Origin: an uncultured Alphaproteobacteria bacterium
GTDB lineage: Bacteria > Pseudomonadota > Alphaproteobacteria > Rhodobacterales > Rhodobacteraceae
Direction of reading: 5' to 3'
Length of the DNA: 46,041 bases
Assembly: GCA_902524845.1 (NCBI GenBank)
Contig: CABZEW010000014.1
Span: forward strand, 1-46,041
Part shown: one piece after another, positions 25,421 to 44,522 of the stretch
Layout of the letters: every line of letters begins with the position of its first letter
How positions within the stretch are numbered: position 1 is the first letter of the stretch
Notes under the pieces: model-generated
What the model was told of the DNA's origin: nothing
The model's database searches: none
The model's input: the letters and a program-made list of their open reading frames with translations, nothing else
Made by a program: the position numbers and the translations under genes

Positions 25421-25436
25421 CAGGAATAATCAGCCG

Positions 25437-26222: not shown

Positions 26223-27040
26223 GCTCCTTAAGTGACAAACAGGAGCGAAACTACCCCACGGTTTGGGACAAACCACCTTTTATCTCAAATAATTTATTAA
26301 GATGGGGAATAATTCTTGGAGCGATTATTTATTTAATTGCAGCTCTTGCATCAATGGAAATAAATCCTCAGAGGCTTATGGAGGGAATTCCCAGAGGTCA
26401 ACGATTTATAGCATCTTTTTTTCCTCCAAATTTTGCTGACAATAGGGGTGTCGTTTGGGATGGTATTTTAGAAAGCATCTGGATGGCGATAATATCAACA
26501 GTTGCAGGAATAGCTCTATCGATCCCAATTGGACTGGGGGCTGCCAGAAATTTAGCTCCCTTTTGGGTATATATAACGTGTCGATCTATAATTGCAGGAT
26601 CCCGTACCTTTCCTGAAATTATATTGGCAATCTTTGCGGTTAAACTCTTTGGCTTTGGACCATTTGCTGGCTTCATAGCCCTTAGTCTTGGCACGATCGG
26701 ATTTTTTGCAAAACTCTTAGCAGAAGATATTGAAAACAGTAGCGAGTCGCAAGCTGAAGCCGTCAAGGCCACCGGTGCAAGTTGGTTTCAATGGATTAAT
26801 TATGCAATACAGCCTCAGGTCATGCCAAGAATGATTGGGCTTTCTGTATATCGATTAGACATTAATTTCAGAGAGTCTGCCGTTGTAGGGATAGTTGGCG
26901 GAGGTGGTATTGGCGCCACTCTAAATACAGCTTTTTCTCGATATGAGTTTGATACTGCTGCAGCCATTCTTCTAATAATTATCCTTATAGTGATGGTACT
27001 AGAATACGCATCGAGTTATTTGAGAAAATGGGTCCAGTGA
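26219..27040 (+). CDS. phnE: Phosphonate ABC importer permease 1
   Basis: A 273-residue PhnE-type permease with six membrane segments. The ABC coupling motif [20 protein letters not shown] and the phosphonate-permease hallmark [20 protein letters not shown] are visible. The GTG start overlaps the phnC stop by four bases (GTGA), indicating translational coupling. Together with the next gene it forms a heterodimeric channel, the usual arrangement in alphaproteobacterial phnCDEE clusters. Confidence 0.93.
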
Positions 27041-28680: not shown

Positions 28681-29517
28681 CTAGGCAACCCTAAGAAGAA
28701 TTACTCCTGCAAGCGTAATGAATGTTCCTATTATTTTTGGGAGGGTTAATTTTTCTTTAAGGAAAAAGAACCCTATAAGAATAGCAAATAAGATTGATGT
28801 TTCGCGCATAGCCATAACGACTGCAATTGGAGCCTTCGAAAAGGCCCACATTACCATTGCGTAAGCTGCGAGGGAAGCGCCTCCTCCCAACCAAAATATA
28901 CCTTTAGCGTCGCTCAGTAAATTTGGCAAAATACGTGGTGAAACAATTCGAGCATATAGCAAAAAGATTAAACCATTTATAATGGACAACCAGCAATAAT
29001 AGGCAACGGGGCTTTGACCTACGCGCCCTCCGTATCCGTCAACCATTGAATAGCTAGCGATGAAACAACCGGTAATTAATGCAGCGATCGCTGCGTTTTT
29101 TGGAACATGTTGTACCTTTAATCCTACTGTAGCGCCAAGGCCTGTTACGATTATCAATATCGATAATATTTCCATATACGTTATTTTTTCATCCAGAAAT
29201 AAAAATGTAAAAATAGTAACGATTACGGGCGATGAAGCACGAGCGATTGGATAAACCTGTGATAGACCGCCTCTCTTATAGGATTCCACAAGAAATAGTT
29301 GATACCCTAGGTGAAAGATGACCCCAAAAAATAAATATGGCCAGCATTCAAGGGAAAGGGGATTAACAAAGAATAGGACTATTATAGCGAAGGGTATGTG
29401 GCCAGAAGAAACTGCAGCCATCTGTAGTAATTTATCGTCACCACTTTTTACTAGTGCATTCCAAAAGGCATGCAAAAAAGCGGCGAACAAAATTATTAGA
29501 AAAATCTCAGTGGTCAT
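28681..29517 (-). CDS. EamA/DMT-family transporter, candidate Pho-regulon member
   Basis: A 278-residue membrane protein with about ten helices in two EamA repeats. Marker segments are LHAFWNALVKSGDDKLLQ, VYPIARASSPVIVTIFTF and FLKEKLTLPKIIGTFITLAG. The ATG at 29517 is preferred over a TTG two codons earlier. It converges on the phosphodiesterase gene. A run of Pho-box heptamers facing it lies about 117-156 bases upstream, which makes it a candidate phosphate-starvation transporter. Which metabolite it moves is unknown; an amino-alcohol or headgroup exporter or importer would fit. Confidence 0.83.
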   Translation of the reverse strand: MTTEIFLIILFAAFLHAFWNALVKSGDDKLLQMAAVSSGHIPFAIIVLFFVNPLSLECWPYLFFGVIFHLGYQLFLVESYKRGGLSQVYPIARASSPVIVTIFTFLFLDEKITYMEILSILIIVTGLGATVGLKVQHVPKNAAIAALITGCFIASYSMVDGYGGRVGQSPVAYYCWLSIINGLIFLLYARIVSPRILPNLLSDAKGIFWLGGGASLAAYAMVMWAFSKAPIAVVMAMRETSILFAILIGFFFLKEKLTLPKIIGTFITLAGVILLRVA

Positions 29518-29633
29518 AGACAAACGCTTTTAAAGAAAAATATCACCTTCCCAGCAATTACATAACCTTAATGCAAGTCAGATGACAAGAGCCCCTATAT
29601 GAATATTGGTTAATATAGCATTTCGAACAAAAA

Positions 29634-29673
29634 AAGACTAATGAATGACAATTTTGTGACTAATTTATGACAG
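29634..29673 (-). promoter_or_regulatory. Multi-unit PhoB box facing the EamA gene
   Basis: Read on the minus strand, heptamers CTGTCAT (29673-29667), TAGTCAC (29662-29656), TTGTCAT (29651-29645) and a weaker TAGTCTT (29640-29634) repeat at exactly eleven-base intervals with four-base spacers. This is the Pho-box layout in tandem, oriented toward the EamA gene. A TATATT (29617-29612) could be the -10, but its spacing of 16 bases from the last unit is longer than usual. Confidence 0.7.
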
Positions 29674-29913: not shown

Positions 29914-29937
29914 TAAAGATGCGTCTTTATTGCTTTA
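29912..29937 (+). terminator. Weak hairpin after the small basic ORF
   Basis: AATAAAGA (29912-29919) and TCTTTATT (29924-29931) form an 8-bp stem with loop TGCG, overlapping the TAA stop and followed by GCTTT. It is AT-rich with a short T run, so it would be a weak terminator; it sits between this ORF and the convergent chrA end. Confidence 0.4.
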
Positions 29938-31116
29938 CCCACTAATCATGCCAAAGCCATAACCAACAGCACCCAATAGAATAACGATGCCCCATATGGG
30001 AGCCTTGAACCAATAAAGTAAAAACACACTCATTCCAAGAAATACTAAAGAGTCATATCCAGTAATAATGGATGGCAACACAAGCTTTAGAAAGCAGGAA
30101 CATAATATAGCTGAAACGGCGATATTGACCGCCTTTATCCCCCTGAAAAAAACAGGTATTTTTTCAATGCTAACCCACATATATAGCGCTAGGGGTGTTA
30201 AGAAAAGTGTCGATCCATATAAGGCAAATAAGTAGACCAGGCCCATTAATATTTTTTCTGACACCAATGGACCAGATGCAACGGTCCCTAAGTAAGAAGC
30301 AAAAGAGAAGAGGGGGCCTGGAATTGCTTGGGCAAAACCGTATCCAAGAAAAAACTCATTAGAGGAAATTATTTCTTGGTCGACAAACCAATCGTGCAGT
30401 AAAGGCAAGACAACATGCCCCCCTCCAAAAATTAGAAAGCCTGAATTAAACAGGTGTTTAAGCGAAGGGTATATTGAGCCAACTAATAAATTTAATTGTA
30501 TAAATACAAAAATGCCCGCAATAAGGCTTCCATATACAAGATATTTATTTATGTTTTCAATCAACGGTTGAGTTTTAATGTTCATATCCGACTTCTTGTA
30601 GAAAAATGCTCCTGCCAGCCAAGAAGCAAATAAAATTATGGCTGGGTAATAAAACAAATCAAAAAAAATTAAAATAATTGTTAGAACAAAAAAATAAATT
30701 TTTTCCAAATTACTACTGCAAAAATTCCTAAACATTGAAAACACTGCCAACCCAACGACAGGTATAGCGACAACTGACACTGCGGTAATTGTTGATTGGC
30801 TCAGAAAGAGAAGGTTTAGTGAATACCCAAGCCCAAGCAATATCATTAAAAAGACGGATGGGAAGCTGAACGCTATGAGCGCGAAATATGCAGTTAGAAA
30901 CCCTCCTTTTTTTAATCCAATAGAAAAGACCATTTGACTAGAGGTAGGGCCAGGTAATGCCTGACAGATTGCAAGCAATGAAGAGAAATCATCCTCTAAA
31001 AGCCACTTTTTTTCTTTTACAAATTCATCTCTAAAATATCCAATGTGGGCCGTTGGCCCTCCAAAAGATACTAATCCTAAACGTAAAAAGGTTTTTGCTA
31101 TAAAAGTATTATTCAT
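29935..31116 (-). CDS. chrA: Chromate transporter (ChrA/CHR family, two-domain)
   Basis: A 393-residue membrane protein made of two homologous CHR domains. Domain 1 has RLGLVSFGGPTAHIGYFRDE and CQALPGPTSSQM; domain 2 has FNSGFLIFGGGHVVLPLL and the mirrored AQAIPGPLFSFASYLG. This is the long-chain form, which exports chromate and may carry sulfate-like oxyanions. It is likely co-transcribed with the iron alcohol dehydrogenase gene, 38 bases upstream. An anion-efflux role fits the oxyanion theme of nearby genes, but no chrB regulator is present. Confidence 0.92.
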   Translation of the reverse strand: MNNTFIAKTFLRLGLVSFGGPTAHIGYFRDEFVKEKKWLLEDDFSSLLAICQALPGPTSSQMVFSIGLKKGGFLTAYFALIAFSFPSVFLMILLGLGYSLNLLFLSQSTITAVSVVAIPVVGLAVFSMFRNFCSSNLEKIYFFVLTIILIFFDLFYYPAIILFASWLAGAFFYKKSDMNIKTQPLIENINKYLVYGSLIAGIFVFIQLNLLVGSIYPSLKHLFNSGFLIFGGGHVVLPLLHDWFVDQEIISSNEFFLGYGFAQAIPGPLFSFASYLGTVASGPLVSEKILMGLVYLFALYGSTLFLTPLALYMWVSIEKIPVFFRGIKAVNIAVSAILCSCFLKLVLPSIITGYDSLVFLGMSVFLLYWFKAPIWGIVILLGAVGYGFGMISG

Positions 31117-31154
31117 AAAAATCCAAACCTTACTTTAAGATTAGATAAAAATAT

Positions 31155-32345
31155 TTAAGTTGATCTTTTACCTATAATTGACGTCTTAACCAAATCTTCC
31201 ATCTGCATTAATGACACCTTTTTAGGATTAGTGGACGTCGCACTATCAACCATCGCTTTTTTTGCTATTCTATGCGCACAATCTAGAGGCACTCCTATCT
31301 CACCCAAGTTATCTGGAATGTCTGTCCTACCCATTAGCTTTTCTATTTCAGTAATTAACTTAGCTACAGATAACTCTTCTAGATGCATATTCTGAGCAAT
31401 AGTAGCCGTCTGACTATCCATTCCTTCCAAATTAAAACGTAAAACTACCGGTAGAACGATAGCGTTTGTTAATCCATGATGTGTATTACATTCAGCACCT
31501 ATCATATGTGATATTGAGTGCACAAGCCCAAGACCCTTTAAAAATGACACGCCTGCAAGGCATGAACCTACAAGCATTCCCGCGCGAGCTGATATATCAT
31601 TTGGCTCATTATACGCTACAGGTAAAAATCTAGAGACTAGCTTAAGCGCTTCCAAGGCCATCGCATCACATAAGGGATTAAAAGAAGGAACAAGGAAAGC
31701 TTCTATAGCATGCGTCAACGCATCAAATCCTGTCCATGCCGTTAGATTTCTGGGTAGCGTAAGAGTAAGTTCTGGATCAAGGATTGTGGTGTTCGGTTTG
31801 AAACTGTGATGCCAAACGCAAAACTTCATATCTTTTTTTGTGTCCGTTATCATCGCAGTGCTCTCAGTTTCAGCTCCAGTGCCAGCTGTGGTCGGAATTG
31901 TAATTAACTTTGGGAACTGATTATTTGCATTGATCTCCGGAGTGTCTTTTCTTTCATACTCAAAGTCCCATAGATCATAAGCGTTATTAGCCACTAGACA
32001 AATTGCCTTGCCACCATCCATTGCACTACCACCACCAATTGCAATAACTGCATCAAAAGCCCCATCTAAAAACTTCTTTTTCCCTTCAGCAATATCCGTG
32101 TCTAAAGGGTTAGGAGAAATATCTGCAAAAACATCAAAGGTTATTTTGCCGTCGTTTAGTAATTCTTGAAGCTTAATAGAAAAGGGTAATTTTTCACTTC
32201 CTTTGTCGGTAACAATTAAAGGTTTACGAATTCCATGCTGTAAACATTGATCCACAATTTCCGCTATTCTCCCGGGGCCATAGGCGATCGGTATTGGAAA
32301 CGACCAGTCTTGAGGCTGTAGAATTTCGGATTCGTTTATAAACAT
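31155..32345 (-). CDS. Iron-containing alcohol dehydrogenase (group III)
   Basis: A 396-residue NAD(P)-dependent dehydrogenase. The nucleotide-binding GGGS motif is AIGGGSAMDGGKA, followed by PTTAGTGAETESTAMIT. Metal ligands are Asp208, His212 (GFDALTHAIEAF), His276 (LVHSISHMIGAECN) and His290 (THHGLTNAIVLP). It oxidises primary alcohols or reduces aldehydes; the substrate cannot be read from sequence. It heads a minus-strand pair with chrA. An AT-rich 9-bp palindrome lies upstream. Confidence 0.93.
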   Translation of the reverse strand: MFINESEILQPQDWSFPIPIAYGPGRIAEIVDQCLQHGIRKPLIVTDKGSEKLPFSIKLQELLNDGKITFDVFADISPNPLDTDIAEGKKKFLDGAFDAVIAIGGGSAMDGGKAICLVANNAYDLWDFEYERKDTPEINANNQFPKLITIPTTAGTGAETESTAMITDTKKDMKFCVWHHSFKPNTTILDPELTLTLPRNLTAWTGFDALTHAIEAFLVPSFNPLCDAMALEALKLVSRFLPVAYNEPNDISARAGMLVGSCLAGVSFLKGLGLVHSISHMIGAECNTHHGLTNAIVLPVVLRFNLEGMDSQTATIAQNMHLEELSVAKLITEIEKLMGRTDIPDNLGEIGVPLDCAHRIAKKAMVDSATSTNPKKVSLMQMEDLVKTSIIGKRST

Positions 32346-32471: not shown

Positions 32472-33389
32472 TTGCTAACTGCCTTCCCAAAGAAAATCTC
32501 TGAGACAACTCTAAGCTTTTCCATTTTGATTAGTGGTGGAATTTGGGGATTATATTGGATACCACTCAGGGAGATTGAGGGGTACGGAATTCCAACTTAT
32601 TGGAGTGTTTTTTTTATTAATGCATGCCCACTAATTTTTATCCTACCTTTATCACTTTTAAAGCTTTCTCACTTCAGAACTAGCTTTTGGCCAACCCTCC
32701 AAGTTGGGCTATTAATCGGGATAGCATTTACATTCTATGCAAGCGCACTTTTGGAAACAACAATTTTGCGCGCAACTCTTATGTTCTATCTTAGCCCGAT
32801 ATGGGGGACTATTATCGGCTATTTCTTTCTCTCAGAGCCTTTTACCAGAGCTCGATTATTATCAATTTGCATTGCGATCATAGGATTAATTCTTTTGCTT
32901 TCTGGTACAAACAATTCCTCTTATCCTCTCAACATTGGCGACTTATTTGCTTTCTTGTCTGGAATTCTTTTTTCATGCGGTTCGTCTATTTTGAAACATA
33001 GGACAGATATTAAAATGATACCTCTAACGAGTTTTGTTTACATTTCTACCAGTGTTGGAGCCTTTTTATTAATAATTTTTATTAGCAACGAGCCTCTTAT
33101 TAATATAAAAACTTTCTTACCTTCCATACCTTATGTTTTTATATGGTCAACAGTCATATTGCTGCCAAGCTTCATGGTTGTTTTCAAGGTTTCACAAATA
33201 TTATTTCCTGGCCGAGTTGCTATTCTGCTAATGTCAGAAGTAGTTGTAGCAATAATTAGTGCGAGCGTTTTAGTTCCAGAAGAGAAAATGTTTTTTCTGC
33301 AATGGCTAGGGGCCTTAGCGATTATTACAGCAGGCTTTACTGAACTTGTAATTGCCAAATTTAAAAAGAAAAGCTCTTATATCCCGTGA
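32472..33389 (+). CDS. EamA/DMT-family transporter
   Basis: A 305-residue membrane protein of about ten helices with two EamA repeats: ISGGIWGLYWIPLREIEGYG at the N-terminus, SALLETTILRATLMFYLSPI in the first half, and LLMSEVVVAIISASVLVPEE in the second. Substrate unknown. The start is a TTG (32472) with a poor Shine-Dalgarno; I kept it since no in-frame ATG precedes the first helix. Its 3' end overlaps the convergent aldehyde dehydrogenase gene by 13 bases. Confidence 0.83.
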   Translation: MLTAFPKKISETTLSFSILISGGIWGLYWIPLREIEGYGIPTYWSVFFINACPLIFILPLSLLKLSHFRTSFWPTLQVGLLIGIAFTFYASALLETTILRATLMFYLSPIWGTIIGYFFLSEPFTRARLLSICIAIIGLILLLSGTNNSSYPLNIGDLFAFLSGILFSCGSSILKHRTDIKMIPLTSFVYISTSVGAFLLIIFISNEPLINIKTFLPSIPYVFIWSTVILLPSFMVVFKVSQILFPGRVAILLMSEVVVAIISASVLVPEEKMFFLQWLGALAIITAGFTELVIAKFKKKSSYIP

Positions 33390-34801
33390 AGAGACTTTGT
33401 CTCTAAATAGTCTTCTAACCCCATTATTCCCCCTTCTCGACCATTTCCAGATTGCTTATATCCGCCGAACGGAGTTCCATAATTATATCCGCCTCCATTT
33501 ATGTGAACAGCGCCTGCTCTAAGCTGTGAACTTATGCGCTCTGCTCTTTCCATATCAGCTGTCTGCAAATATGCGGCTAATCCATAAGGTGTATCATTTG
33601 CCATAGAAACGGCAGCAGACTCATTTTCAAAAGGTATTATAACGAGGACAGGCCCAAAAATCTCTTCTTGTGCCACTCGCATATTGTTCGTTACATTGTA
33701 AAAAATTGTGGGCTTTACGAACCACCCATCTTCCGAACCCTGAGGTTTCCCCAATCCTCCTGTTAACACTGATGCTCCTTCTTTGATCCCTACATCTATC
33801 ATATTCTGAACGCGATCGAATTGTATTTTGTCGAATAAGGGACCTATATGGTCTCCCTCTTTTTCAGGGTCATCGATTGTTATTTCTTCAGCCGCTTTTT
33901 TTGCAATTTTCAAGACTTCCTCATAGCAGGAGCTTTCAACGAGAAGTCTCGTCGGTGCATCGCAGGACTGGCCTGTGTTTAACATGCACTCTTTCACCGA
34001 ATATTCGATGTCTCTCTCTAGGTTGGCATCAGAAAAGACGATGTTAGGAGATTTTCCACCCAGCTCTAAAGTAACTCTCTTAATTGTTTCTGCTGAATCT
34101 TTAGTTACCAGAATTCCTGCTCTCGTTGATCCAGTAAAGGACATCATATCAATATCTTTGTGTTTTGACATTGCTGTTCCGACAACATCCCCAGCACCAT
34201 TAACGAGATTAAAAACCCCAGCCGGGTACCCAGCCTCTTCTATGACTTCAGCATAAACCATTGCGGATACTGGAGTATGCTCAGATGGTTTTAGAATACA
34301 TGTACATCCAGTTGCAAGTACGGGTATGACCTTCAAAGCAATTTGATTAATGGGCCAATTCCAGGGAGTTATCAGCCCACATACTCCTATGGGTTCTTTT
34401 AAAAGAATATCGCCATTATTTAATTTAGTTCTCTCTTCTAATTCATTTAATGCATCGATAAATGAATCTAAATGTCCAATGGCTGCATCAGCTTGAGCGG
34501 AACGTGCCATTGAAATTGGAGCGCCCATTTCTTGCCGCATAGCTTGCGCCAAATCTTCGAACCTTTTTTCCGTTACAAATTTTAGCTCTTTCAAAAGAGC
34601 AAGGCGGTCTTTTTTTGTGGTCTTAGAATATGTTTCAAATGCTCTTTTTGCTGCCTCTACGGCTATATTGACATCTTTCTCATTTCCTAACGCAACTTTA
34701 CCTAATTCTTCTAGGTTGGATGGATTCAATACAGACATATGATCACCAGATATTGGGTTTGCCCATTTGCCGTCAATATAAAATTTTAAAAGATTTTCCA
34801 T
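33377..34801 (-). CDS. NAD(P)-dependent aldehyde dehydrogenase
   Basis: A 474-residue ALDH-superfamily enzyme. Catalytic residues are visible: Asn148 in TPWNWPINQI, Glu246 in TLELGGKSPN and the nucleophile Cys280 in NTGQSCDAPTR. The cofactor loop is FTGSTRAG. It oxidises an aldehyde to its acid. Neighbouring an alcohol dehydrogenase across the EamA gene suggests a shared alcohol-aldehyde-acid route, but they are not in one operon. It diverges from the arsenate operon with its Pho box; no cross-regulation is shown. Confidence 0.92.
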   Translation of the reverse strand: MENLLKFYIDGKWANPISGDHMSVLNPSNLEELGKVALGNEKDVNIAVEAAKRAFETYSKTTKKDRLALLKELKFVTEKRFEDLAQAMRQEMGAPISMARSAQADAAIGHLDSFIDALNELEERTKLNNGDILLKEPIGVCGLITPWNWPINQIALKVIPVLATGCTCILKPSEHTPVSAMVYAEVIEEAGYPAGVFNLVNGAGDVVGTAMSKHKDIDMMSFTGSTRAGILVTKDSAETIKRVTLELGGKSPNIVFSDANLERDIEYSVKECMLNTGQSCDAPTRLLVESSCYEEVLKIAKKAAEEITIDDPEKEGDHIGPLFDKIQFDRVQNMIDVGIKEGASVLTGGLGKPQGSEDGWFVKPTIFYNVTNNMRVAQEEIFGPVLVIIPFENESAAVSMANDTPYGLAAYLQTADMERAERISSQLRAGAVHINGGGYNYGTPFGGYKQSGNGREGGIMGLEDYLETKSLHGI

Positions 34802-34856
34802 CGTAATTTGTCCTACATTTTTGATTATAAAAGGTAAAACACATTTTTTTAAGTTA

Positions 34857-34890
34857 TTTACATATTTCTGTCACAAATTTTTGATATCTT
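34857..34890 (+). promoter_or_regulatory. PhoB box and -10 upstream of the GAPDH-arsJ pair
   Basis: TTTACAT (34857-34863), four-base spacer ATTT and CTGTCAC (34868-34874) fit the Pho box exactly. TATCTT (34885-34890) follows ten bases later as a -10, the same layout as at phnD. The ATG is at 34908. The site lies in the short region between the divergent ALDH gene and the GAPDH pseudogene. Confidence 0.75.
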
Positions 34891-34907
34891 GCAAACTTGG
34901 AGAATTT

Positions 34908-35912
34908 ATGAAAATAATTATTAACGGTCTCGGACGAATAGGTAAACTAGTTTTTAGAAGGCTTTGCGACAAAGGTCTTTATAAAAATATTTTATTGGTA
35001 AATGAAAAAGAGGGGTCTCCAGACGATCAAGAATATTTTTTAAAATACGATAGCGTCCACGGTTCCTAGGGTGACTTTCTAACTTATAAAAATAATTTTT
35101 TATATTATAAAAATCATAAAATAAGTGTGTCTAATTTCTCTTCTATTGCAGATATTAACTTTAAGGGCGAAAAGAACGTTTTGGTAATAGACTGTACCGG
35201 GAAGCATAACTCTTTAAATTTGCTGAACCCATATATCAGTAAATATGCTAAATTTATTCTAGTATCCACACCTATCGAGTCAAAAAGCGTTCAGAACATT
35301 GTGTATGGCGTTAAACATAATGACGTCGATACTAAGAGTTTCCAGATATTTACATCAGCTAGCTGCACAACTAATTGCTTAGCCCCGATTGTGAAAGTTG
35401 TCGAAGAAAAAATAGGTATAGAGCACGGTTCTATAAATACAATTCATAATATTACTAATAGTCAAAATCTCGTTGATTCACCTAAAGCTAATCTGAGAAG
35501 GTCTAGATCAGGTATAAACTCTCTTATACCTACCACTACAGGCTCAGCAAAAGCAATTTCTCTGATATATCCTAAGCTAAAAGGTAGGTTGAATGGGCAC
35601 GCCGTAAGGGTCCCTCTTCTCAATGCATCGCTGACAGATTGCGTTTTTAAAATGAAAAAGCCGGTAAGCGTCGAAGAGATCAATAAACTGTTCATAGAAG
35701 CATCGGCGTCTTACTTAAAAAATATTCTTTCATTTGAAGAAAGGCCTCTGGTGTCTTCAGATTATGTAAACAATTCACATTCTGCAATAATCGATGGTCT
35801 TTCCACTATGGTCGTAAATAAAACTCAATTAAAGGTATACGCTTGGTATGACAACGAGTGGGGATATGCATGTAGAATGGTCGATCTGATATCTCATCTT
35901 TTGAATAAATAG
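34908..35912 (+). pseudogene. ArsJ-associated glyceraldehyde-3-phosphate dehydrogenase, broken by an internal TAG
   Basis: The reading frame runs without shift from ATG 34908 (GGAG upstream) to TAG 35910-35912, 334 codons, the usual GAPDH length, but codon 54 (35067-35069) is TAG. Family sequence continues in the same frame: NGLGRIGKLVFRR, KYDSVHGS before the stop, then GDFL and SASCTTNCLAPIVKVVEE with the catalytic Cys, GSAKAISLIYPKLKGRLNG and WYDNEWGYACRMV. GAPDHs read HGRW or similar here, so TAG probably came from TGG (Trp). The arsenate-specific variant makes 1-arseno-3-phosphoglycerate for ArsJ export. The arsJ gene follows eight bases later. A GTG at 35127 could restart the rest but would lack part of the NAD domain. 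Confidence 0.85.
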
Positions 35913-35920
35913 GCTTCACA

Positions 35921-37188
35921 TTGTTTACGTTTAGTCCCTTTTTTAGTGTAACTATTATTTATTGGGCATTAATGTTGACCGATGGTGCCCTTCGAATGCT
36001 AATACTATTGCATTTGCACCAACATGGCTATTCTCCGTTCACGTTGGCATATATTTTTCTTCTATATGAATTTATGGGAATTTTAACAAACATCACCGCT
36101 GGAAGATTGGGAAAGAGATTTGGATTATCAACCCTTTTAATCACAGGGGTATGTCTTCAAATAATCAGCCTGCTCGCTCTCGGTCTTATACCAACCCATG
36201 TGGAAACTGCATCAACGATTATACTATTGATCATTTTTCAAGGTATTTGCGGTATTGCTAAAGATTTAACGAAAATTGGGAGTAAGACAGCTACAAAATT
36301 TCTTAGTAATAGTGAAAAAGGAGGGATCCTATTCACAAATATAAGTTGGTTAACAGGATCTAAAAACTCGGTAAAAGGATTTGGTTTTTTTCTTGGTGCT
36401 ACTTTAATATCGTTTCTTTCCTTCTCAACTTGTCTCTTTATCCTTTCAGCACTTTTATTTTTCTTTCTTTGCATGTTTCTTAAATCAATAGTGATATCAG
36501 ATGTTCTTAGCAATAAGTCCAATAAGAGTGAAAAGGTTGCCGTTATATCAGCCAACCGACAAATCAATAATCTGTCTGTTTCCAGGATATTCTTATTTGG
36601 TGGGAGAGATATTTGGTTTGTAATAGGCGTGCCAATTTTTTTGTTAGAGGCTTTTTCTACAAGTTACTTTGGTGACGTTAACAGCGACTCAAGATTTTTT
36701 TTGGTAGGTGGTTTTCTGGCATCTTGGGTGGTTTTCTACGGTTTTATACAATCACGGGTTCCAAGCTTTATCCGCAAGAATGCAATAAACCCAATTGAAA
36801 AATTGCCTTTAGATGGTCAATAGTGCTAATTTTTCCGACACTAGTTTTAAGCATTATCTCTCTTACATTTGATAAATCCGTTGCACTAATTGACATAGTT
36901 ATAGTTGTTATATTTTTATTTATTTTCGGTGTTTTCTTTGCCATCAATTCAAGCATTCATTCATACCTAATTCTGAAACTTACAAAGAAAGAAAATGCGT
37001 CTGCAAATGTTGGTTTCTATTATTCCGCAAATGCCTTGGGAAGATTTATCGGGACACTATTATCAGGAATAACCTTTCAGTTGGGAGGTCTGTTCCTATG
37101 TCTTTTCATTACAACGCTATTTCTAATAGCTTCAAGTTTCTTCATAAAGTCCTTGAGCAAGGAAAGGCAAGAACTGGAATTTTCTTAA
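35921..37188 (+). pseudogene. arsJ: ArsJ organoarsenical efflux MFS permease, broken by a frameshift
   Basis: ArsJ exports 1-arseno-3-phosphoglycerate. The 5' part (from TTG 35921, 300 codons) has ArsJ hallmarks IYWALMLTDGALRMLILLHL, GIAKDLTKIGSKTA, GSKNSVKGFGFFLGA and RIFLFGGRDIWFVIGVP. It stops at 36821-36823; the remaining helices continue in another frame to 37188. One base is missing, most simply in the A run at 36798-36802: adding one A makes the frame continuous and joins PIEK to IAFRWSIVLIFPTLV, giving about 422 residues, near the family length of about 410. Apart from the lesion the sequence looks well conserved. The pair sits directly before phoR. Confidence 0.82.
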
Positions 37189-37234
37189 AAAAAATACATA
37201 ATAGAGGCATGTGACTTAAATGGATCGAATTTAA

Positions 37235-38512
37235 ATGAAAGAGAATCCTGCGGCTTTTATTCTATTTTCCTGTATATTGACTTTCCTTGTCGGAATGTTC
37301 GCTGTGTTAGATTATCCATTGTGGTCTTTTCCTGTTACCGTGGTGATGAGTTGCCTTATTTTTTACATGTACCGAAATTCAACAAGAGTATTGAAGCGGC
37401 ATCAAATTGCCGAACCAAGACAAGATGCTATAAAACAGGAAATACAAGAAACCTATAACACGAAAATTACCTATCAAGTAGTTAAGGGGCTTTTGAATAT
37501 TCTCCCTTCTCCTTATGTCTTGATTGATCGCAATGGTAGATTAACTTTTATAAACGCTGAAGCGAAAAGCATTGTGCCGGATTCTCAAATTGGTTCGCAC
37601 ATTTCCAACGTTTTTAGGTCTCCTGTCTTTTTAAGCGCTGTCGAAAATGCTATACTTAAAGATAAGGAAAAAATACTTTCATTTGAAATTGAGGCCCCGC
37701 AATTTCGACAACTTAAAGCGCATATATTTTTTATTTCTTCCAGTAAGATACCTAACAGCTTTAATGATATTTTCATTCAATTTACCGACGAGTCAACTCA
37801 TATACGAAGTGAGAAAATACGGACTGATTTTGTTGCCAATGCTAGTCATGAACTTCGAACACCTCTTACATCAATAATGGGATATATCGAAACTCTTCAA
37901 GGACACGCTAAGAAAGATGTTAAAATGCAGAAGGTTTTTTTGGACCTAATGAATAAGCAGGCAGGAAAGATGGAGAGGCTTATCAGTGATTTAATGTCCT
38001 TATCAAGATTAGAGATCGATGAATTAAAACCTATTTCTTCGACATGCTCCGTAAAAGATATAATTGAAGAATTAGTTAATTCCCTTAAACCGCTCTCTAT
38101 AGACAATAATGTCTCATTGTCATTTAAAATACCTAAAAACTTTTCTGCTGTGATAGGCGATCCTAGTCAATTACGGCAACTTTTTTCAAATCTTATTGAA
38201 AATGCGATAAAATACTCTGGGAAAAAAAGTAAAGTTAACATTTATATTTCCAAAGAAAAGAACAAAGATATGTTTGGAGTGGTTGTGGAAGATAACGGTC
38301 ATGGCGTAGCACCTGAACATTTGTCTCGACTAACAGAGAGGTTCTACAGAGCTAATTTAAATACTGAAATTGAAAAAGATGGTACTGGTCTAGGTTTATC
38401 CATAGTTAAACATATATTGATAAGACATAGAGGTAAGCTTCAAATTGAGTCAAAACTTGGTAAGGGCGCCAAATTCATAGCATGGCTGCCTAAAATGAAA
38501 AGCACCTTATGA
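37235..38512 (+). CDS. phoR: Phosphate regulon sensor histidine kinase
   Basis: A 425-residue membrane kinase. Two N-terminal helices (about residues 7-26 and 31-46) anchor it, a PAS domain follows (LPSPYVLIDRNGRLTFINAEA), then the HisKA box FVANASHELRTPLTSIMGY with phospho-acceptor His205, and the HATPase N box NLIENAIKYSG with G boxes DNGHGVA and GTGLGLSIVKH. In low phosphate it phosphorylates PhoB, and in plenty it is held off through PstSCAB and PhoU. It is separated from arsJ by 46 bases and from pstS by 161, and phoB is last in the same cluster. Confidence 0.94.
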   Translation: MKENPAAFILFSCILTFLVGMFAVLDYPLWSFPVTVVMSCLIFYMYRNSTRVLKRHQIAEPRQDAIKQEIQETYNTKITYQVVKGLLNILPSPYVLIDRNGRLTFINAEAKSIVPDSQIGSHISNVFRSPVFLSAVENAILKDKEKILSFEIEAPQFRQLKAHIFFISSSKIPNSFNDIFIQFTDESTHIRSEKIRTDFVANASHELRTPLTSIMGYIETLQGHAKKDVKMQKVFLDLMNKQAGKMERLISDLMSLSRLEIDELKPISSTCSVKDIIEELVNSLKPLSIDNNVSLSFKIPKNFSAVIGDPSQLRQLFSNLIENAIKYSGKKSKVNIYISKEKNKDMFGVVVEDNGHGVAPEHLSRLTERFYRANLNTEIEKDGTGLGLSIVKHILIRHRGKLQIESKLGKGAKFIAWLPKMKSTL

Positions 38513-38673
38513 AACGGAGATAGCTTTTTAAAACTATAGGGAAATAAAAACGTGCTTTTTCAGACCCTTATCGATTCATAAATTTTTTACATTTCTGACA
38601 TAATACATTGAGATTTCAATGGCATCTTTCTCACAGCTTTAAGAGCTTTTATAAAATTTATGGAGCAACCAAA

Positions 38674-39630
38674 ATGAGAAAAATAATTAAAACACTTGCA
38701 TGCGCTGTTCTGGCAACTGTTGTGACGACTGGTCAATCAATGGCTAGAGAAGGAGATCAAATATCGATAGTTGGTTCGTCAACGGTATTTCCTTTTTCAA
38801 CCATAGTCGCTGAGAGATTTGCTAAAAATACTGATTTTAAAGCACCTGTTATAGAGTCAACGGGTACCGGTGGAGGCGCGAAACTTTTTTGCTCCGGTAT
38901 TGGACTGGAACATCCTGACGTAACAAATGCTAGTAGGGCAATGAAATCGAGCGAGAAAGAAAAATGCACTGCAAACGGAATAACTCCGGTCGAATACATG
39001 ATAGGGTTTGATGGTATAACTTTTTCAAACAGCAAAAAAGCCAAAAAATATTCGCTGACTAAGGAAGAAATATTTAAGGCAGTATCTGCCAAAGTAATGT
39101 CAGAGGGCAAGGTGGTTGACAATAATTTTAAGACATGGAGTGACATCAACCCTTCGCTTCCAAATGTGAAAATAGATGTTTTGGCTCCTCCACCATCTTC
39201 TGGTACACGAGATGCTTTTGTAGAGTTGGTCATGCACGACACCTGTAAGAAGCTTTACAAGATGAGTAAGGCTGATTACAAAGCTTCTTGTTCAGCTTTG
39301 AGAGAAGACGGTGCTGTTACTGAAGCAGGAGAAAATGATAACCTGATTATTGAAAAGCTTGCTGCTAATCAGGATCGATTTGGTATTTTCGGATATTCAT
39401 TTCTTGACCAAAATAAAGATAAGGTTCAAGGTTCTGTGGTAAACGGTGTAGCGCCATCAATGGAAACAATTGCTGATAGCTCTTATAAAGTCTCACGCCC
39501 TCTCTTTTTCTACGTAAAACAAGAGCATGTTGGGGTTATTCCCGGCCTACAAGAGTTTGCAGACTATTTCATGAGTTTAACAGTTAGCGGAAGCCCATTA
39601 GAGGCTGCTGGTCTAATACCAAAGCCATAA
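38674..39630 (+). CDS. pstS: Phosphate ABC importer binding protein
   Basis: A 318-residue periplasmic phosphate-binding protein. I start it at ATG 38674 (GGAG eight bases upstream), giving a clean signal peptide MRKIIKTLACAVLATVVTTG ending near SMAREG; the longer frame from 38608 is not credible. Phosphate contacts are in IVGSSTVFPFS, STGTGGGAKLFC and NASRAMK, and GTRDAF is also typical. It captures orthophosphate and, in its absence, PhoR is activated. The region upstream has only one good heptamer, CTGACAT (38595-38601), not a full Pho box. A 13-bp hairpin follows. Confidence 0.95.
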   Translation: MRKIIKTLACAVLATVVTTGQSMAREGDQISIVGSSTVFPFSTIVAERFAKNTDFKAPVIESTGTGGGAKLFCSGIGLEHPDVTNASRAMKSSEKEKCTANGITPVEYMIGFDGITFSNSKKAKKYSLTKEEIFKAVSAKVMSEGKVVDNNFKTWSDINPSLPNVKIDVLAPPPSSGTRDAFVELVMHDTCKKLYKMSKADYKASCSALREDGAVTEAGENDNLIIEKLAANQDRFGIFGYSFLDQNKDKVQGSVVNGVAPSMETIADSSYKVSRPLFFYVKQEHVGVIPGLQEFADYFMSLTVSGSPLEAAGLIPKP

Positions 39631-39651
39631 GCTGAAATCCATTTACTAAAT

Positions 39652-39699
39652 CCATAAAGCCGATTAGCATATCGGCTTTATGGTATAAATGTTTTTTTA
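39652..39699 (+). terminator. Hairpin between pstS and pstC
   Basis: CCATAAAGCCGAT (39652-39664) and ATCGGCTTTATGG (39671-39683) form a perfect 13-bp stem with loop TAGCAT. A T7 run follows eight bases later (39692-39698). It probably attenuates transcription or protects the pstS message, allowing more PstS than permease. Confidence 0.8.
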
Positions 39700-39710
39700 G
39701 GATTCGAAAT

Positions 39711-41096
39711 TTGCCAAATCTTCCCATGAGTTTAGTTTTTTTTATGCTTATTGGGACTTCCCTTTTCTTTTATTTTTATTCCAAAAATAATATTTTAAAA
39801 AAGGCAGCCTTTGTTGGACAAAGATCGAAAGCGTTGCCGTCACATTATGGGCAGCAGTCCTTTTTGTGGGCTTTTATTCCTTCTACAATAATTTTGCTTT
39901 TCCTTACCGTTGGAGGCCCAAACTACATAGATCAACTCTTTTATGATAAAATTCAGGAGTCAAACCCAAAACTAAATCAATCCTTTGTAAGCCTTATTTT
40001 AGCCAAAGTTATTAACGTTTCTAACGGGAAAATAGCCACCGATGATGAAAAAATTCTTACTCTTGCCAGTGATTATAAAGCAGCTATAGACCAACTATAT
40101 TTTTATCGGGGACTAGTGGTTATTTTGTGTGCCGCCCTTGTGGGTATGTTTGTAAGTTCACTACAAAGCCCTCGCGCAAATGCAAGAGAAAACGTTGAAA
40201 AATTTATAATAAATATTTTCTTTGTTTCAGCAGTTATTGCTATTTTTACAACTGTTGCAATAATTTTGAGCCTTTTGTTTGAGGCGCTGAGGTTTTTCAG
40301 TCTCTACAACTTTTTCGACTTTCTATTTGGATTGCACTGGGCACCAAATGTAGCTATTCGCAGCGATCAAGTGGCTGCTGCAGGTTCGTTTGGTATGATC
40401 CCCGTATTGGTTGGGACACTCCTTATCTCTTTTATTGCAATGTGTGTTGCTATTCCAATTGGATTGTTTTCCGCCATTTATCTTGCTGAATTTGCTTCGC
40501 CACGAACAAGGGACTTTGTAAAACCCACATTAGAAATTTTGGCAGGAATACCAACTGTTGTGTATGGGTATTTTGCTGCATTAACGGCGGCTCCATTTTT
40601 CCGGGAAATAGGGTTTTCACTAGGATTAGATGTATCATCTGAGTCAGCTTTAGCAGCCGGTGCTGTAATGGGAATAATGATTATTCCTTTTATTTCCTCT
40701 TTATCTGACGACGTTATCAGAGCTGTTCCTCAAAGCTTACGGGATGGTTCAATGGGGCTTGGTGCCACAAAAGCTGAAACAATATACAACGTAGTTCTTC
40801 CCGCTGCTATTCCTGGTTTAGTTGGTGCTGTTCTCTTAGCCGTCAGTCGAGCAATTGGCGAAACAATGATCGTTGTAATGGCTGCAGGATTAAGCGCAAG
40901 TTTGACTGTTAATCCACTGGATTCCGTAACCACTGTCACAGTTCAGATTGTATCTCTCCTTACTGGAGATACAGAGTTTGATGATATTAAAACCTTGTCA
41001 GCCTTCGGCCTTGGATTGGCACTTTTCTTCTTTACCCTGTTACTCAATATTTTTGCTCTCTCTATATCTCGGAGGTTAGCCGAAAGATATGATTAG
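39711..41096 (+). CDS. pstC: Phosphate ABC importer permease PstC
   Basis: A 461-residue permease. Beyond the six-helix core it has a long N-terminal extension (about 150 residues with membrane segments), as in the DUF3708-type PstC of alphaproteobacteria. The coupling loop DGSMGLGATKAETIYNVVLP and the core motif RAIGETMIVVMAAG are clear. The start is TTG (39711) with AGGA nine bases upstream; an ATG five codons later is an alternative. It pairs with PstA, whose start overlaps its end by eight bases. Confidence 0.94.
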   Translation: MPNLPMSLVFFMLIGTSLFFYFYSKNNILKKAAFVGQRSKALPSHYGQQSFLWAFIPSTIILLFLTVGGPNYIDQLFYDKIQESNPKLNQSFVSLILAKVINVSNGKIATDDEKILTLASDYKAAIDQLYFYRGLVVILCAALVGMFVSSLQSPRANARENVEKFIINIFFVSAVIAIFTTVAIILSLLFEALRFFSLYNFFDFLFGLHWAPNVAIRSDQVAAAGSFGMIPVLVGTLLISFIAMCVAIPIGLFSAIYLAEFASPRTRDFVKPTLEILAGIPTVVYGYFAALTAAPFFREIGFSLGLDVSSESALAAGAVMGIMIIPFISSLSDDVIRAVPQSLRDGSMGLGATKAETIYNVVLPAAIPGLVGAVLLAVSRAIGETMIVVMAAGLSASLTVNPLDSVTTVTVQIVSLLTGDTEFDDIKTLSAFGLGLALFFFTLLLNIFALSISRRLAERYD

Positions 41097-42354
41097 AAAG
41101 AATATCCGCTCAAGAAGGGCCCGTGAAACCAGATTAAAGATCTATGGTATTTCCTCCATTTGTTTTGCTCTTATTATGCTTGCAACCCTACTTATATCGA
41201 TAGGGCTTAATGGGTATAGCGCCCTTCAGCAAGCCTACTTTAAGGTAGATATATCTGTAAACACGGAAAAGTTCGTTGATGAAAGGGACTTTTTAAACAA
41301 CAAGAAAATGAACCTTTTTAACTGGGATGGTTTAGTGCAAAGCGCATTAAGAGAATTTTTTCCAGAGGTAAAAGAGAGAGATGAAAAAAAGGAACTGTTT
41401 GCAATTATTTCAGCTAATGCTGGATACGATCTAAAGGAAATTGTCAAAAAGAAAGCTCTTGGAAGTGGCTCTCACACTTTGTCCGTTTGGCTTCATTTAT
41501 CTGATGACGCAGATCAGTATTTAAAAGGTAGATTAAGCATTGATATTCCAGAAGAAGATAGAAGAATTAATAACAAACAAATAGCATGGGTAAATAGCTT
41601 GGTTGAGAGAGATATTGCGAAACTTAAATTTAACAAAGCATTTTTCACATCTGCCGATTCTAGAGAGCCTGAGAGTGCTGGAATATTAGGCTCGGTAGTA
41701 GGGTCTGCTCTAACCCTTTTTGTCACCGTAATGTTTGCACTTCCACTGGCTATTATGGCTTCCATATATCTTGAGTATTTTGCTAAGCCCGGACGGATAA
41801 CGGATTTCATTGAAGTAAATATAAATAATTTAGCTGCTGTTCCATCTATAGTTTTTGGCTTGCTAGGCTTATCAGTTTTTCTCTCCACATTTGGTTTACC
41901 AAGATCTGCACCGCTCGTCGGTGGTCTAGTCTTAGGATTAATGACGCTTCCTACGATAATTATTGCCTCTAGAGCATCTATTCGTTCCATTCCACCATCT
42001 ATAAGAGAAGCCGCTCTAGGACTGGGTGCTTCAAAAATGCAAGCTGCGATGCATCATGTTTTGCCCTTAGCGGCACCTGGAATTTTAACAGGTACAATAA
42101 TTGGAATGGCACAAGCTTTGGGTGAAACAGCACCTCTCTTAATGATTGGAATGGTAGCTTTTATAATTGATATTCCGACCACCTTTACATCAAGTGCCAC
42201 AGCAATGCCGGTTCAAATTTATATGTGGTCTGATAGTGCAGAAAGAGCATTTTATGAAAGAAGTTCTTTAGCTATACTGTTCTTGGTAGCGTTTTTGATC
42301 TCAATGAACCTTTTAGCTGTTATATTGAGGAAAAAATTCGAGAAGAAATGGTGA
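41089..42354 (+). CDS. pstA: Phosphate ABC importer permease PstA
   Basis: A 421-residue permease. Its N-terminal half (to about residue 195) resembles the DUF3333 domain of alphaproteobacterial PstA, with one membrane helix and a large, probably periplasmic, segment; the C-terminal permease has the coupling loop [20 protein letters not shown] and [14 protein letters not shown]. With PstC it makes the phosphate channel. It overlaps pstC and is followed four bases after its stop by pstB. Confidence 0.94.
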
Positions 42355-42358
42355 ACTA

Positions 42359-43117
42359 ATGGCTATTAAATTTAGAACAAAGAATGTCGAAGTTTCTTAC
42401 AGTGATAAAAAGGCTATTAAGGATATAAGCCTTAATATTAAGAAAAACACGATAACAGCACTGATTGGACCCTCTGGGTGTGGAAAATCAACTTTTTTGC
42501 GTTGTCTAAATAGAATGAATGATGTCATTGAGAACTGTTCAATAAAGGGAAGCGTACTTCTTGATGAACAAGATATTTATGGGCCAGACGTAGATCCCGT
42601 TGAACTAAGAGCTCGCGTGGGTATGGTTTTTCAAAAAGCCAATCCGTTTCCAAAATCCATTTTTGATAATATTGCCTATGGCCCAAGAATTCATGGCTTA
42701 GCCAGTAGTGACAACGAATTGAAAGATATAGTTCACAATAGTTTAGAAAAAGCAGGGCTTATAGATGAAGTCAAAGATAGATTAAATGATCAGGCAACAG
42801 GATTGTCCGGTGGCCAACAACAGAGAATATGCATTGCTAGAGCCATTGCCGTTAGCCCGGAAGTTATTCTAATGGATGAACCCTGTTCTGCACTTGATCC
42901 TATCGCCACTGCTAAAATTGAAGAGCTTATGAATGAGATCTCTGAAACTTACACGATTATAATAGTTACTCATTCAATGCAGCAAGCTGCGCGTGTATCC
43001 AAGAAAACAGCCTTTTTCCATTTAGGAGACTTAATTGAATATAACGATACGGATAAAATTTTTACTCAACCTGAAAATGAAAAAACACAGGACTACATAA
43101 CTGGACGATTTGGATAA
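42359..43117 (+). CDS. pstB: Phosphate ABC importer ATPase PstB
   Basis: A 252-residue ATPase with Walker [20 protein letters not shown], the PstB-specific Q-loop [20 protein letters not shown], signature LSGGQQQR and Walker [14 protein letters not shown]. These are almost invariant in PstB. It powers PstSCA, which is also the entry route of arsenate, relevant to the neighbouring arsJ pair. phoU follows 12 bases downstream. Confidence 0.96.
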
Positions 43118-43129
43118 TTAGGAATTAGA

Positions 43130-43813
43130 ATGACTTTACATATTTCATCAGCATTTAACGAGGACCTCATTCATATCAATGGTAAAATAGTTGAGATGGG
43201 TGGTCTATGCGAACAGGTAATAACACACTCGAATCTTTCGATAAAAGACAATAATGTGCAAATGGCAGAAAACGCTATCCTCTTAGATGAAAAGATAGAC
43301 TTTCTAGAAACAGAGATAAATGAATCGGTAATTAAAGCAATCGCATTAAGGCAACCGGTTGCTGATGATTTACGCGTTTTGTTTTCGGCCATAAAGATCT
43401 CTGGTGCCTTTGAGAGGGTAGGTGATCTTTGTAAGAATATTGCTAAACGGTCTCAGCTTTTAACGGAAGAACATCATACAGACATTAGAAATAAAATATT
43501 TAAGTTAGGTGAAAAAGTCAAAAAACAACTTACTAAATCAATAAACGCGTACACTAATCAGGATGTAAAACTAGCCCGGAAGGTATGGAAAAACGATTAT
43601 AAAATTGATCAAATGTATACCGATCTGTTTGAAAATCTTCTGGTTTATTTGAGAAAGAAAAAACGAGTGGCCTCTGGCTCCCACCTCATGATAATAGCAA
43701 AAAATTATGAACGCATTGGAGATCATACTACTCATATTGGAGAAATGACTCACTTTGCAATAACCGGTGAGAATTTAGTAGCCATAAGACCAAAAGTAAA
43801 TCTCCCAGTTTGA
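43130..43813 (+). CDS. phoU: Phosphate signalling adaptor PhoU
   Basis: A 227-residue all-helical protein with two PhoU repeats. The metal-binding E-R-x-x-D motifs are visible in each: GAFERVGDLCKNIAKRS and NYERIGDHTTHIGEMTHFA. PhoU links the transport state of PstSCAB to PhoR and keeps the kinase off when phosphate is plentiful. It lies between pstB and phoB with small gaps, so it is part of the operon. Confidence 0.94.
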   Translation: MTLHISSAFNEDLIHINGKIVEMGGLCEQVITHSNLSIKDNNVQMAENAILLDEKIDFLETEINESVIKAIALRQPVADDLRVLFSAIKISGAFERVGDLCKNIAKRSQLLTEEHHTDIRNKIFKLGEKVKKQLTKSINAYTNQDVKLARKVWKNDYKIDQMYTDLFENLLVYLRKKKRVASGSHLMIIAKNYERIGDHTTHIGEMTHFAITGENLVAIRPKVNLPV

Positions 43814-43826
43814 CAAGGAATTGGAG

Positions 43827-44522
43827 ATGAATAAAAAAATTATACTTATAGAAGATGATAAGGATCTCCAAGAAATAATTAAGTATAATTTTTCGAAAGA
43901 AAAATATGACATAGTGTTGTGTTCTGATGGTGAGGAGGCTCTTGATCTTATAAAACATGAAATGCCTGACCTCGTAATATTAGACTGGATGCTACCGAAT
44001 TTATCAGGGGTTGAGATACTACGGCAAATACGAGCTAGTAAAAACCTAAAGAAAATTCCCATTATAATGCTCACAGCGCGAGCTGAAGAAATTGATAAAT
44101 TGAGAGCTTTTGACACCGGAGCTGATGACTATATAACCAAGCCCTTTTCAAACTCTGAATTAATTGCGCGAACTAAAGCCCTTTTGAGACGCGTGAGTGA
44201 AGACAGTTTTACCGATACTTTAAATTTTCATGACATTGAATTGAACCGCGATAACAAAAGAGTGTTTAGAGGTAAAAAGGAAATAAAATTAGGGCCTGTG
44301 GAATTTAAGTTACTTGAAGTATTTCTAATGAGACCAGGACAGGTATTTAATAGGGAGCAATTGTTAGATAAAGTTTGGGGCAATGAGATCTACGTGGAGG
44401 AAAGGACAGTTGATGTCCATGTGGGACGGCTACGAAGAGCGCTTAATAGAGGTAAAGTCAAAAAGGACCCGATACGCACTGTAAGAAGTGCAGGTTATTC
44501 ACTAAATGAGAACTATAATTAG
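43827..44522 (+). CDS. phoB: Phosphate regulon response regulator PhoB
   Basis: A 231-residue OmpR-type regulator. The receiver domain has the acidic pocket ED (9-10), phospho-acceptor Asp53 in VILDWMLPN and Lys105 in YITKPFSNS; the C-terminal winged helix includes LGPVEFKLLEVF and ERTVDVHVGRLRRAL. I prefer ATG 43827, with AAGGA seven bases before it, over TTG 43821. When phosphorylated by PhoR it binds the heptamer repeats described here. The gene converges on agt across seven bases. Confidence 0.95.
   Translation: MNKKIILIEDDKDLQEIIKYNFSKEKYDIVLCSDGEEALDLIKHEMPDLVILDWMLPNLSGVEILRQIRASKNLKKIPIIMLTARAEEIDKLRAFDTGADDYITKPFSNSELIARTKALLRRVSEDSFTDTLNFHDIELNRDNKRVFRGKKEIKLGPVEFKLLEVFLMRPGQVFNREQLLDKVWGNEIYVEERTVDVHVGRLRRALNRGKVKKDPIRTVRSAGYSLNENYN

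Follow-up and report, generated by a model that had tools for sequence, protein, structure and literature searches.

A gapdh-arsJ pair heading the phoR-pst cluster in a genus of Rhodobacteraceae: a candidate phosphate-responsive and exchangeable arsenate-defense cassette

This study concerns a gapdh-arsJ gene pair on contig CABZEW010000014.1 of an uncultured member of the Rhodobacteraceae; the whole 46,041-nucleotide stretch that was analyzed is referred to as the window. The pair is probably an exchangeable cassette between an aldehyde dehydrogenase (ALDH) gene and phoR, and one that PhoB activates together with pst when phosphate is scarce. As read from the sequences, this rests on the protein families, a conserved gene order, a conserved site like the Pho boxes of pstS, lesions in the window's copy, and allelic differences between near-identical flanks; from these we infer PhoB binding, induction, co-transcription, and arsenate export in the genus. 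The sequence evidence for the phosphate wiring appears good overall and weak in the largest clade. The source genome (G000) is a draft of 1.945 Mb in 89 contigs, one of which is the window, and is 74.4% complete. It was compared within a genus set of 22 draft genomes, itself included, with completeness of 58-91%. The genus is presumably of marine origin. Most named relatives bear the prefix 'AG-', which we take to denote single-cell genomes, the record titles being silent on this point.

The families of both genes could be assigned with the help of intact relatives. All 11 intact arsJ genes of the genus exceed the 400-bit cut-off of the equivalog NF033734 (412.0 bits in G003 and 422.4 in G009), and the ArsJ-associated GAPDH family NF033735, with a cut-off of 450 bits, is matched at 464.3 bits in G003 and 478.8 in G009. 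GAPDH above this cut-off was found in nine same-genus genomes, with 14 of the 21 relatives covered. In the window, the two arsJ pieces score 300.6 and 105.3 bits with NF033734, each under the cut-off because the gene is broken; gapdh, read through its one TAG by the search tool, reaches 446.7 bits, just under that of NF033735. The ArsJ-associated families are the best match of the long gapdh piece and of the two arsJ pieces; the 53-amino-acid N-terminal gapdh piece gives 39.4 bits for general GAPDH-I vs 36.9 for the ArsJ-associated family. The genes adjoin on the same strand: gapdh ends at 35912, and arsJ begins at 35921, after a gap of eight bases. This adjacency is kept across the genus wherever both genes are in the assembly. 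The initial annotation, made from the sequence alone, was thus right in naming a GAPDH and ArsJ pair, in calling the permease ArsJ, and in its eight-base gap. In an ArsJ tree of 130 rows (family members only, without a non-ArsJ outgroup), from which the broken window arsJ was left out, five genus rows form one clade with a support of 100; this clade is joined to the Rhodobacteraceae member G054 with a support of 95, on long branches flagged as possibly false. Matches of 41-47% had raised the possibility of a Burkholderiales origin of the pair; the tree instead joins the genus to this family member, on those long branches.

The gene order on the + strand is gapdh, arsJ, phoR, pstS, pstC, pstA, pstB, phoU, and phoB (34908 to 44522). 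To the left of gapdh lies the divergently oriented ALDH gene, separated by a gap of 106 base pairs (bp). The features of the locus are as follows.

33377..34801, - strand: ALDH gene (PF00171); left border of the exchangeable block; 95-96% amino-acid identity in the arsJ-less G015 and G016
34858..34886, + strand: Pho-box-like site before gapdh; 7-mers TTACATA, TGTCACA, and TTTGATA at 11-bp spacing; begins 50 bp ahead of the gapdh start
34908..35912, + strand: ArsJ-associated gapdh (NF033735, PF00044, PF02800); TAG at 35067-35069; open pieces 34908-35066 and 35127-35912
35921..37188, + strand: arsJ, organoarsenical efflux permease of the major facilitator superfamily (MFS); NF033734 in both pieces; open pieces 35921-36823 and 36823-37188
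37235..38512, + strand: phoR sensor kinase (TIGR02966, 286.5 bits, under its cut-off of 334.2); allele 94% identical to that of G002 and 69% to those of G015/G016
38574..38602, + strand: Pho-box-like site before pstS; rank 4 of 92,026 (29-mer), rank 34 (18-mer)
38608..39630, + strand: pstS (TIGR02136, 163.6 bits, under its cut-off of 206.6); 38674, a later ATG, is an alternative start
39711..41096, + strand: pstC (TIGR02138, above cut-off)
41089..42354, + strand: pstA, named from operon position
42359..43117, + strand: pstB (TIGR00972, above cut-off)
43130..43813, + strand: phoU, named from operon position
43821..44522, + strand: phoB response regulator (TIGR02154, above cut-off)

For pstA and phoU, no NCBIfam match was found at E<=1e-60, weaker matches not being examined.

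The arrangement is real and conserved in the genus, judging by the assemblies. arsJ is present in 15 of the 22 genomes: it is intact in 11 (G001, G003-G009, G014, G020, and G021), broken in two (G000 and G018), and cut by a contig end in two (G002 and G017). Within the reach of the contigs, each of the 15 copies adjoins phoR or ALDH or both. The complete order from ALDH to phoB is found in 11 genomes (that of the window, G001, G003-G009, G014, and G018), and partial views come from G002 and G021 (phoR side only), G017 (ALDH side only), and G020 (both sides, to the phoR start). Seven genomes are without arsJ; G010-G013 and G019 are also without the phoR locus in their assemblies, and G015 and G016 have the locus without the pair. 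Intact gapdh and arsJ are under purifying selection within clades, with ratios of nonsynonymous to synonymous divergence (dN/dS) of 0.12-0.25. Between G000 and G002, dN/dS is 0.26 over 121 codons in the 3' part of arsJ and 0.12 in phoR.

The site before gapdh was scored with a Pho matrix trained on the 350 bp before pstS at 29 loci of the family outside the genus, which itself contributed no sequence; the trained motif, TGTCATnAAACTGTTACAtaaCtGTCACA, is an 11-bp repeat in three copies. When both strands of the window are scored, the gapdh site ranks 4 of 92,048 as an 18-mer and 6 of 92,026 as a 29-mer. The 29-mer sites ahead of it are those of phnD (24264 and the overlapping 24275), 29644 (- strand), pstS (38574), and a phoB-internal site (44207); in the 18-bp core it comes fourth, after the first two of these and the arsJ-internal 36868, and the pstS site drops well down the ranking. 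The trained matrix was needed because fixed patterns did not suffice: the literal E. coli-type Pho box CTGTCATNNNNCTGTCAT with up to three mismatches misses the gapdh site (11 matches vs 3.1 expected), and a looser pattern takes it in with two mismatches among 46 matches vs 32 expected. A blind search in three lineages (the window, G003, and G009) for the 29-mer best conserved between ALDH and gapdh returned exactly 34858-34886. In this 29-mer, 20 of the 29 columns are identical in the three lineages (60 shuffles averaged 12.6 and never exceeded 15), and its offset from the gapdh start is -50 in the window, -49 in G003, and -51 in G009. The ALDH-phoR gap of the arsJ-less G015 and G016 has no such site (18-mer rank 615 of 31,968 and 328 of 17,426), indicating that the site belongs to the cassette and not to the divergent ALDH gene. 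An upstream site like the pstS Pho boxes, as would mark a member of the Pho regulon, was thus found in the window and in G009, where it ranks 1 of 33,946 in its own locus; by these scores the strength of the site falls from high in G009 through moderate in the window to low in the largest clade. The initial annotation had placed a Pho box before the pair and the phosphate cluster behind it and had looked to related genomes for a verdict. The matrix and the three-lineage conservation bear out the box, the seven genes from phoR to phoB follow on the same strand, and both the Pho-like site and the phoR/pst linkage proved to be kept in the genus rather than absent from it.

The gapdh-arsJ pair, alone or with phoR-pstS, appears from these alignments to be mobile through recombination at one fixed position. 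The window, G002, G015, and G016 are close kin, with 94-99% amino-acid identity in flanking genes where these are present. Between the window and G015, the flanking proteins are 94-98% identical, phoR is 69% identical, and pstS is 76-80% identical (76% over full length); G000 and G002 share a common block, with phoR at 94% and pstS at 92%. G015 has no gapdh-arsJ and carries divergent phoR and pstS, and G016 is alike up to phoR, where its contig ends. At the DNA level, identity between the window and G015 is 95.3% to base 34809 and is then lost; it stands at 55-79% across phoR and pstS, and at 83-88%, climbing to 91-97%, in pstC. As the pair is absent and other phoR and pstS alleles are present between near-identical flanks, the block can be described as an exchangeable allele. 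G009 and G021 have almost identical gapdh-arsJ (synonymous divergence, dS, of 0.12 in arsJ), with saturated dS in phoR and pstS. These two loci (L041 and L046) suggest that the pair recently passed from one species to another and entered the same site, beside deeply diverged phoR/pstS.

In the genome of the window, the pair is decaying. An in-frame TAG at 35067-35069 divides gapdh into the short N-terminal piece and a later piece starting at 35127, and comparison with G002 places a one-base frame loss in arsJ between about 36790 and 36825; neither lesion was mentioned in the initial annotation. Because this copy is broken, it exports nothing in the source genome. Each lesion is a single-base event, as would be expected if both were sequencing or amplification errors and the pair were functional in the cell, an explanation compatible with a Pho-coupled cassette and rather less probable than genuine decay. 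The presumed single-cell origin of most named relatives also points toward such errors. The explanation has to accommodate the occurrence of two lesions within 2.3 kb and the absence of any from the twelve neighboring genes that were aligned with G015, all uninterrupted in the window (five were also aligned with G016, whose contig ends there). It also has to accommodate G018, where arsJ is broken too, and G015 and G016, where the pair is absent, which together indicate that loss is recurrent.

A survey of gapdh-arsJ loci extended the comparison to the phylum. It comprised 125 arsJ loci, 120 of them scored, with kinship uncorrected and the Pho matrix trained in one family. Most of the loci (98) were hand-chosen, at roughly one to a few for each genus, among profile matches that passed the cut-off in 59 of 148 genomes and in 117 of 398; the remaining 21 and 6 came from two other searches. 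Genes such as arsR, acr3, and phoB were called by author-set score thresholds, and a Pfam check of eight upstream open reading frames gave four of arsR type and one ACR3-like (SBF family), in line with expectation, two of other families (MatE and Rep3), and one without a match. gapdh lies within 2 kb of arsJ in 122 of the 125 loci. In 21 of the 120 loci, the 1.2 kb ahead of gapdh contain a Pho site that scores 14 bits or more on either strand; the remainder of these loci, a background of mostly coding DNA, would predict 1.76 sites. Eleven of the 26 arsR-less promoters reach 9 bits (18-mer), vs a mean of 0.5 and a maximum of 4 for 300 column-permuted matrices. Dinucleotide shuffles at p<0.02 singled out 11 (18-mer) and 15 (29-mer) of these 26 promoters vs 6 and 4 of the 94 arsR-led ones; both this control and the permuted matrices cover only sites directly before gapdh. 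Mutual exclusion of arsR and the Pho box (13 of 26 arsR-less vs 7 of 94 arsR-led at p<0.02) is not claimed, because coding sequence lies upstream of gapdh in arsR-led operons and the signal is confounded. Scoring of the arsR promoter regions also gave a site at p<0.02 in 10 of 79, several of them at about -875 to -916 from gapdh. The overall enrichment of Pho sites before gapdh-arsJ stands.

The survey also covered linkage to phosphate genes. phoB, phoR, or phoU was called within 6.5 kb in 5 of the 125 loci, all from Burkholderiales metagenome-assembled genomes (MAGs; L089, L092, L093, L097, and L098), with acr3 and arsR also near. L088 has a partial phoR match at a contig end, and pst genes without phoBR were called in six further loci. 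By gene order, L092, L093, L097, and L098 (Oxalobacteraceae/Burkholderiaceae MAGs) are a second lineage with linkage to a phosphate locus. In these four, arsR, acr3, and gapdh-arsJ lie a few kb behind pst-phoU-phoB-phoR. Two further observations concern gapdh-arsJ loci of the family. The arsR directly upstream is a fusion of a helix-turn-helix (HTH) domain with a low-molecular-weight (LMW) phosphatase domain (ArsC-like) in the two cases checked, L254:4830-5666 (+) and L267:8962-9822 (-). In L250 (G053), at about 8625-9635 (-), a gapdh-arsJ pair with a Pho-box-like site adjoins a Rep3-type plasmid replication initiator gene.

Other arsenic genes were sought in the genus. Neither acr3 (TIGR00832) nor the thioredoxin/glutaredoxin-type ArsC (PF03960) was found in any of the 22 drafts; the search did not extend to ArsB, ArsM, and aquaporins, and routes other than ArsJ may therefore exist. 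No arsR stands beside the efflux genes at the locus, whose neighbors are ALDH and phoR, and the short ALDH-gapdh gap leaves no space for one. ArsR-type HTH domains above cut-off were found in two genomes for HTH_5 and one for HTH_20, on contigs other than that of arsJ.

Several points weigh against a cassette that defends the genus from arsenate under phosphate control. The pair is broken in the very genome studied and arsJ in G018 as well, and lesions in amplified or assembled genomes may themselves be artefacts. ArsJ may not be the only arsenate route: HTH_20 matches at E<=0.001, nearly all below cut-off, occur in 14 of the 22 genomes (none on an arsJ contig), and LMW-phosphatase-type proteins (PF01451), which could include an arsenate reductase, occur in 9. 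The gapdh site is outscored in the window by presumably chance sites inside phoB (44207; 7.3 vs 6.8 bits, 29-mer) and inside arsJ (36868; 10.7 vs 9.6 bits, 18-mer). In the largest clade it is weak, ranking 4-24 as an 18-mer and 3-28 as a 29-mer within single loci. A stricter two-half-site pattern with up to one mismatch gave 22 matches over the whole draft genome, vs 13 when reversed, and none at gapdh. The initial annotation's proposal that detoxification is coupled to the Pho system is therefore upheld in its conserved site and linkage, and weakened by the broken copy and by the weak site of the largest clade.

A site that is weak in the largest clade, and in the window is outranked by chance sites within genes, would also fit an ordinary arsenic cassette that landed upstream of phoR by chance, the site being a constitutive promoter element with no phosphate control. 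In keeping with this, gain, loss, and breakage of the pair among relatives resemble the behavior of hitch-hiking cargo, arsR lies within 4 kb in 94 of the 120 scored phylum loci, and no phoB, phoR, or phoU was called near the pair in the other sampled family members. A chance landing nevertheless seems unlikely: three-lineage conservation and the pstS-trained matrix chose the same stretch, the site takes first rank in G009, and other lineages also show an enrichment of Pho sites ahead of gapdh-arsJ, among others in the arsR-less promoters that reach 9 bits.

If the cassette is Pho-controlled, the following course of events is proposed. Under phosphate scarcity, PhoR~PhoB would activate the Pho boxes of gapdh and pstS simultaneously. 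Raised Pst would bring more arsenate uptake, and arsenate entry would be greatest then; GAPDH would turn the arsenate into 1-arseno-3-phosphoglycerate, and ArsJ would export this product. The result would be a feed-forward protection with no arsenic sensor at the locus. phoR may be co-transcribed with the pair, as it starts 46 bp behind arsJ and no terminator-like site follows arsJ (none in 34700-39800, where 3.4 are expected by chance); it would then stand under its own regulon. A promoter scan of the region was discarded, with 16 sites vs 18.6 expected. The window's genome would represent a decayed state of the pair, and two near relatives a version without arsJ, in which phoR and pstS are of different alleles. 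Phosphate importers are the route by which arsenate enters. Sargasso Sea arsenate/phosphate ratios above 50 are cited, and the LMW ArsC of SAR11 rises 2.3-fold under phosphorus (P) starvation, according to the passages of PMC6426599 drawn on here.

The same closeness of phoR to arsJ, with no terminator-like site between them, and the lack of a Pho box before phoR in the arsJ-free version could mean that the cassette serves chiefly phosphate economy or PhoR autoregulation, with GAPDH and ArsJ processing phosphorylated intermediates under phosphate stress. This is highly improbable, since intact copies score above the cut-offs of ArsJ-specific families, whose founders export 1-arseno-3-phosphoglycerate (PMC5930303, in the part used here), and a second GAPDH, of general type, is encoded elsewhere in the source genome (C5:12729-13688).

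More broadly, and tentatively, at somewhat short of even confidence, PhoB control of gapdh-arsJ may be a widespread and unrecognized arsenate defense in Pseudomonadota. The genus would then be an end point, sensor-less at the locus, with no acr3 or PF03960 ArsC found, and with the pair on an allele that swaps PhoR and PstS. If PhoB does control the pair, cells would pre-arm an arsenate exporter whenever they raise phosphate uptake, and populations would tune arsenate defense and phosphate sensing jointly through recombination. A defense triggered by scarcity would explain how streamlined bacteria cope without an arsenic sensor at the locus, and would extend a picocyanobacterial theme to heterotrophs. 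The intact cassette vs the broken or absent one would provide a marker whose abundance can be compared with maps of phosphate and arsenate.

Other genes of the window also have Pho-box-like sites. A phnDCEE transporter operon of phosphonate/phosphite type lies at 24378-27852, with the window's strongest Pho box (24264-24303, +) ahead of it. A Pho-box-like run of 7-mers with 11-bp spacing at 29634-29673 (-) precedes a gene at 28681-29523 that matches the 'phosphonate utilization associated' membrane protein family TIGR03340 below its cut-off. To the left of the exchangeable block, at 29935-32345 (-), are two genes, one of the chromate-transporter family and one for an iron-type alcohol dehydrogenase. 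The former is found at the same place in G009, G015, and G016; most members of the large clade instead have, on the far side of the alcohol dehydrogenase, a distant ABC match resembling PstB.

The arrangement can be compared with several known systems, each considered here for the portions of the cited papers that were drawn on. In Pseudomonas aeruginosa DK2, gapdh-arsJ reportedly sits in an arsenic operon. The DK2 pair (Chen et al. 2016, as related in PMC5930303) joins the same two protein families as in the genus; unlike it, the genus pair is flanked by ALDH and phoR, and no adjacent arsR, acr3, or PF03960 ArsC was found. In Halomonas GFAJ-1, an arsenic island holds mfs1-mfs2(ArsJ)-gapdh together with a pst operon, a further pst operon lies outside the island, which the genus arrangement does not share, and deletion of either pst operon left arsenic resistance unchanged (PMC5930303). 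In Halomonas HAL1, PhoB regulates aioBA, and its binding to a Pho box has been demonstrated; the target there is arsenite oxidase, not gapdh-arsJ, and phoBR is on another contig (PMC4563254). Among streamlined marine Alphaproteobacteria, HIMB59 resembles the genus in having a swappable pst region: its flexible phosphate islands offer pst-region versions, with or without phoBR, that are swapped between close relatives, and it differs in that 'arsen' occurs 0 times in the portion of PMC10734472 drawn on.

Phosphate response of the pair itself has been recorded in Nodularia, where under P limitation the log2 change was 1.57 and 2.41 for gapdh and 0.29 and 1.20 for arsJ, most arsenate-related genes having no marked response; that locus differs in being led by arsR and in possessing acr3, and the term 'Pho box' has no occurrence in the portion of the paper used (PMC9846622). 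This was the only paper in the open-access literature searched in which 'PhoB' and 'arsJ' were found together, and PhoB control of gapdh-arsJ in Proteobacteria was not found in open-access titles or abstract beginnings among the matches listed. In the print searched, the ArsR-less alphaproteobacterial form heading phoR-pst, allele exchange with phoR and pstS, and Pho boxes before gapdh-arsJ elsewhere were likewise not found. The initial annotation's impression that the arrangement was undescribed thus applies to the exact form; the general idea is already in print for Prochlorococcus, the cyanobacterial pstS-gap3-mfs operons, Halomonas, and Nodularia.

In cyanobacteria, operons of the type arsR-pstS/sphX-gap3-mfs-acr3 are described (PMC4284471, PMC3610870), and in them, as in the genus, gapdh-arsJ adjoins a gene for a phosphate-binding protein (PMC4284471, PMC3610870, PMC9846622). 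The phosphate-acquisition cluster of Prochlorococcus contains arsR, chrA, mfs, gap1, phoBR, and pstABCS, and resembles that of the genus in having GAPDH and MFS genes within a phoBR/pst cluster that varies between open-ocean relatives (PMC10504305). It differs in being cyanobacterial, in including arsR, and in that the MFS protein is not named ArsJ in the legend (PMC10504305); the version in the genus is ArsR-less and stands directly upstream of phoR. In sum, the association of gapdh-arsJ with phosphate genes is already known in general, and the arrangement in the genus is a variant of this association.

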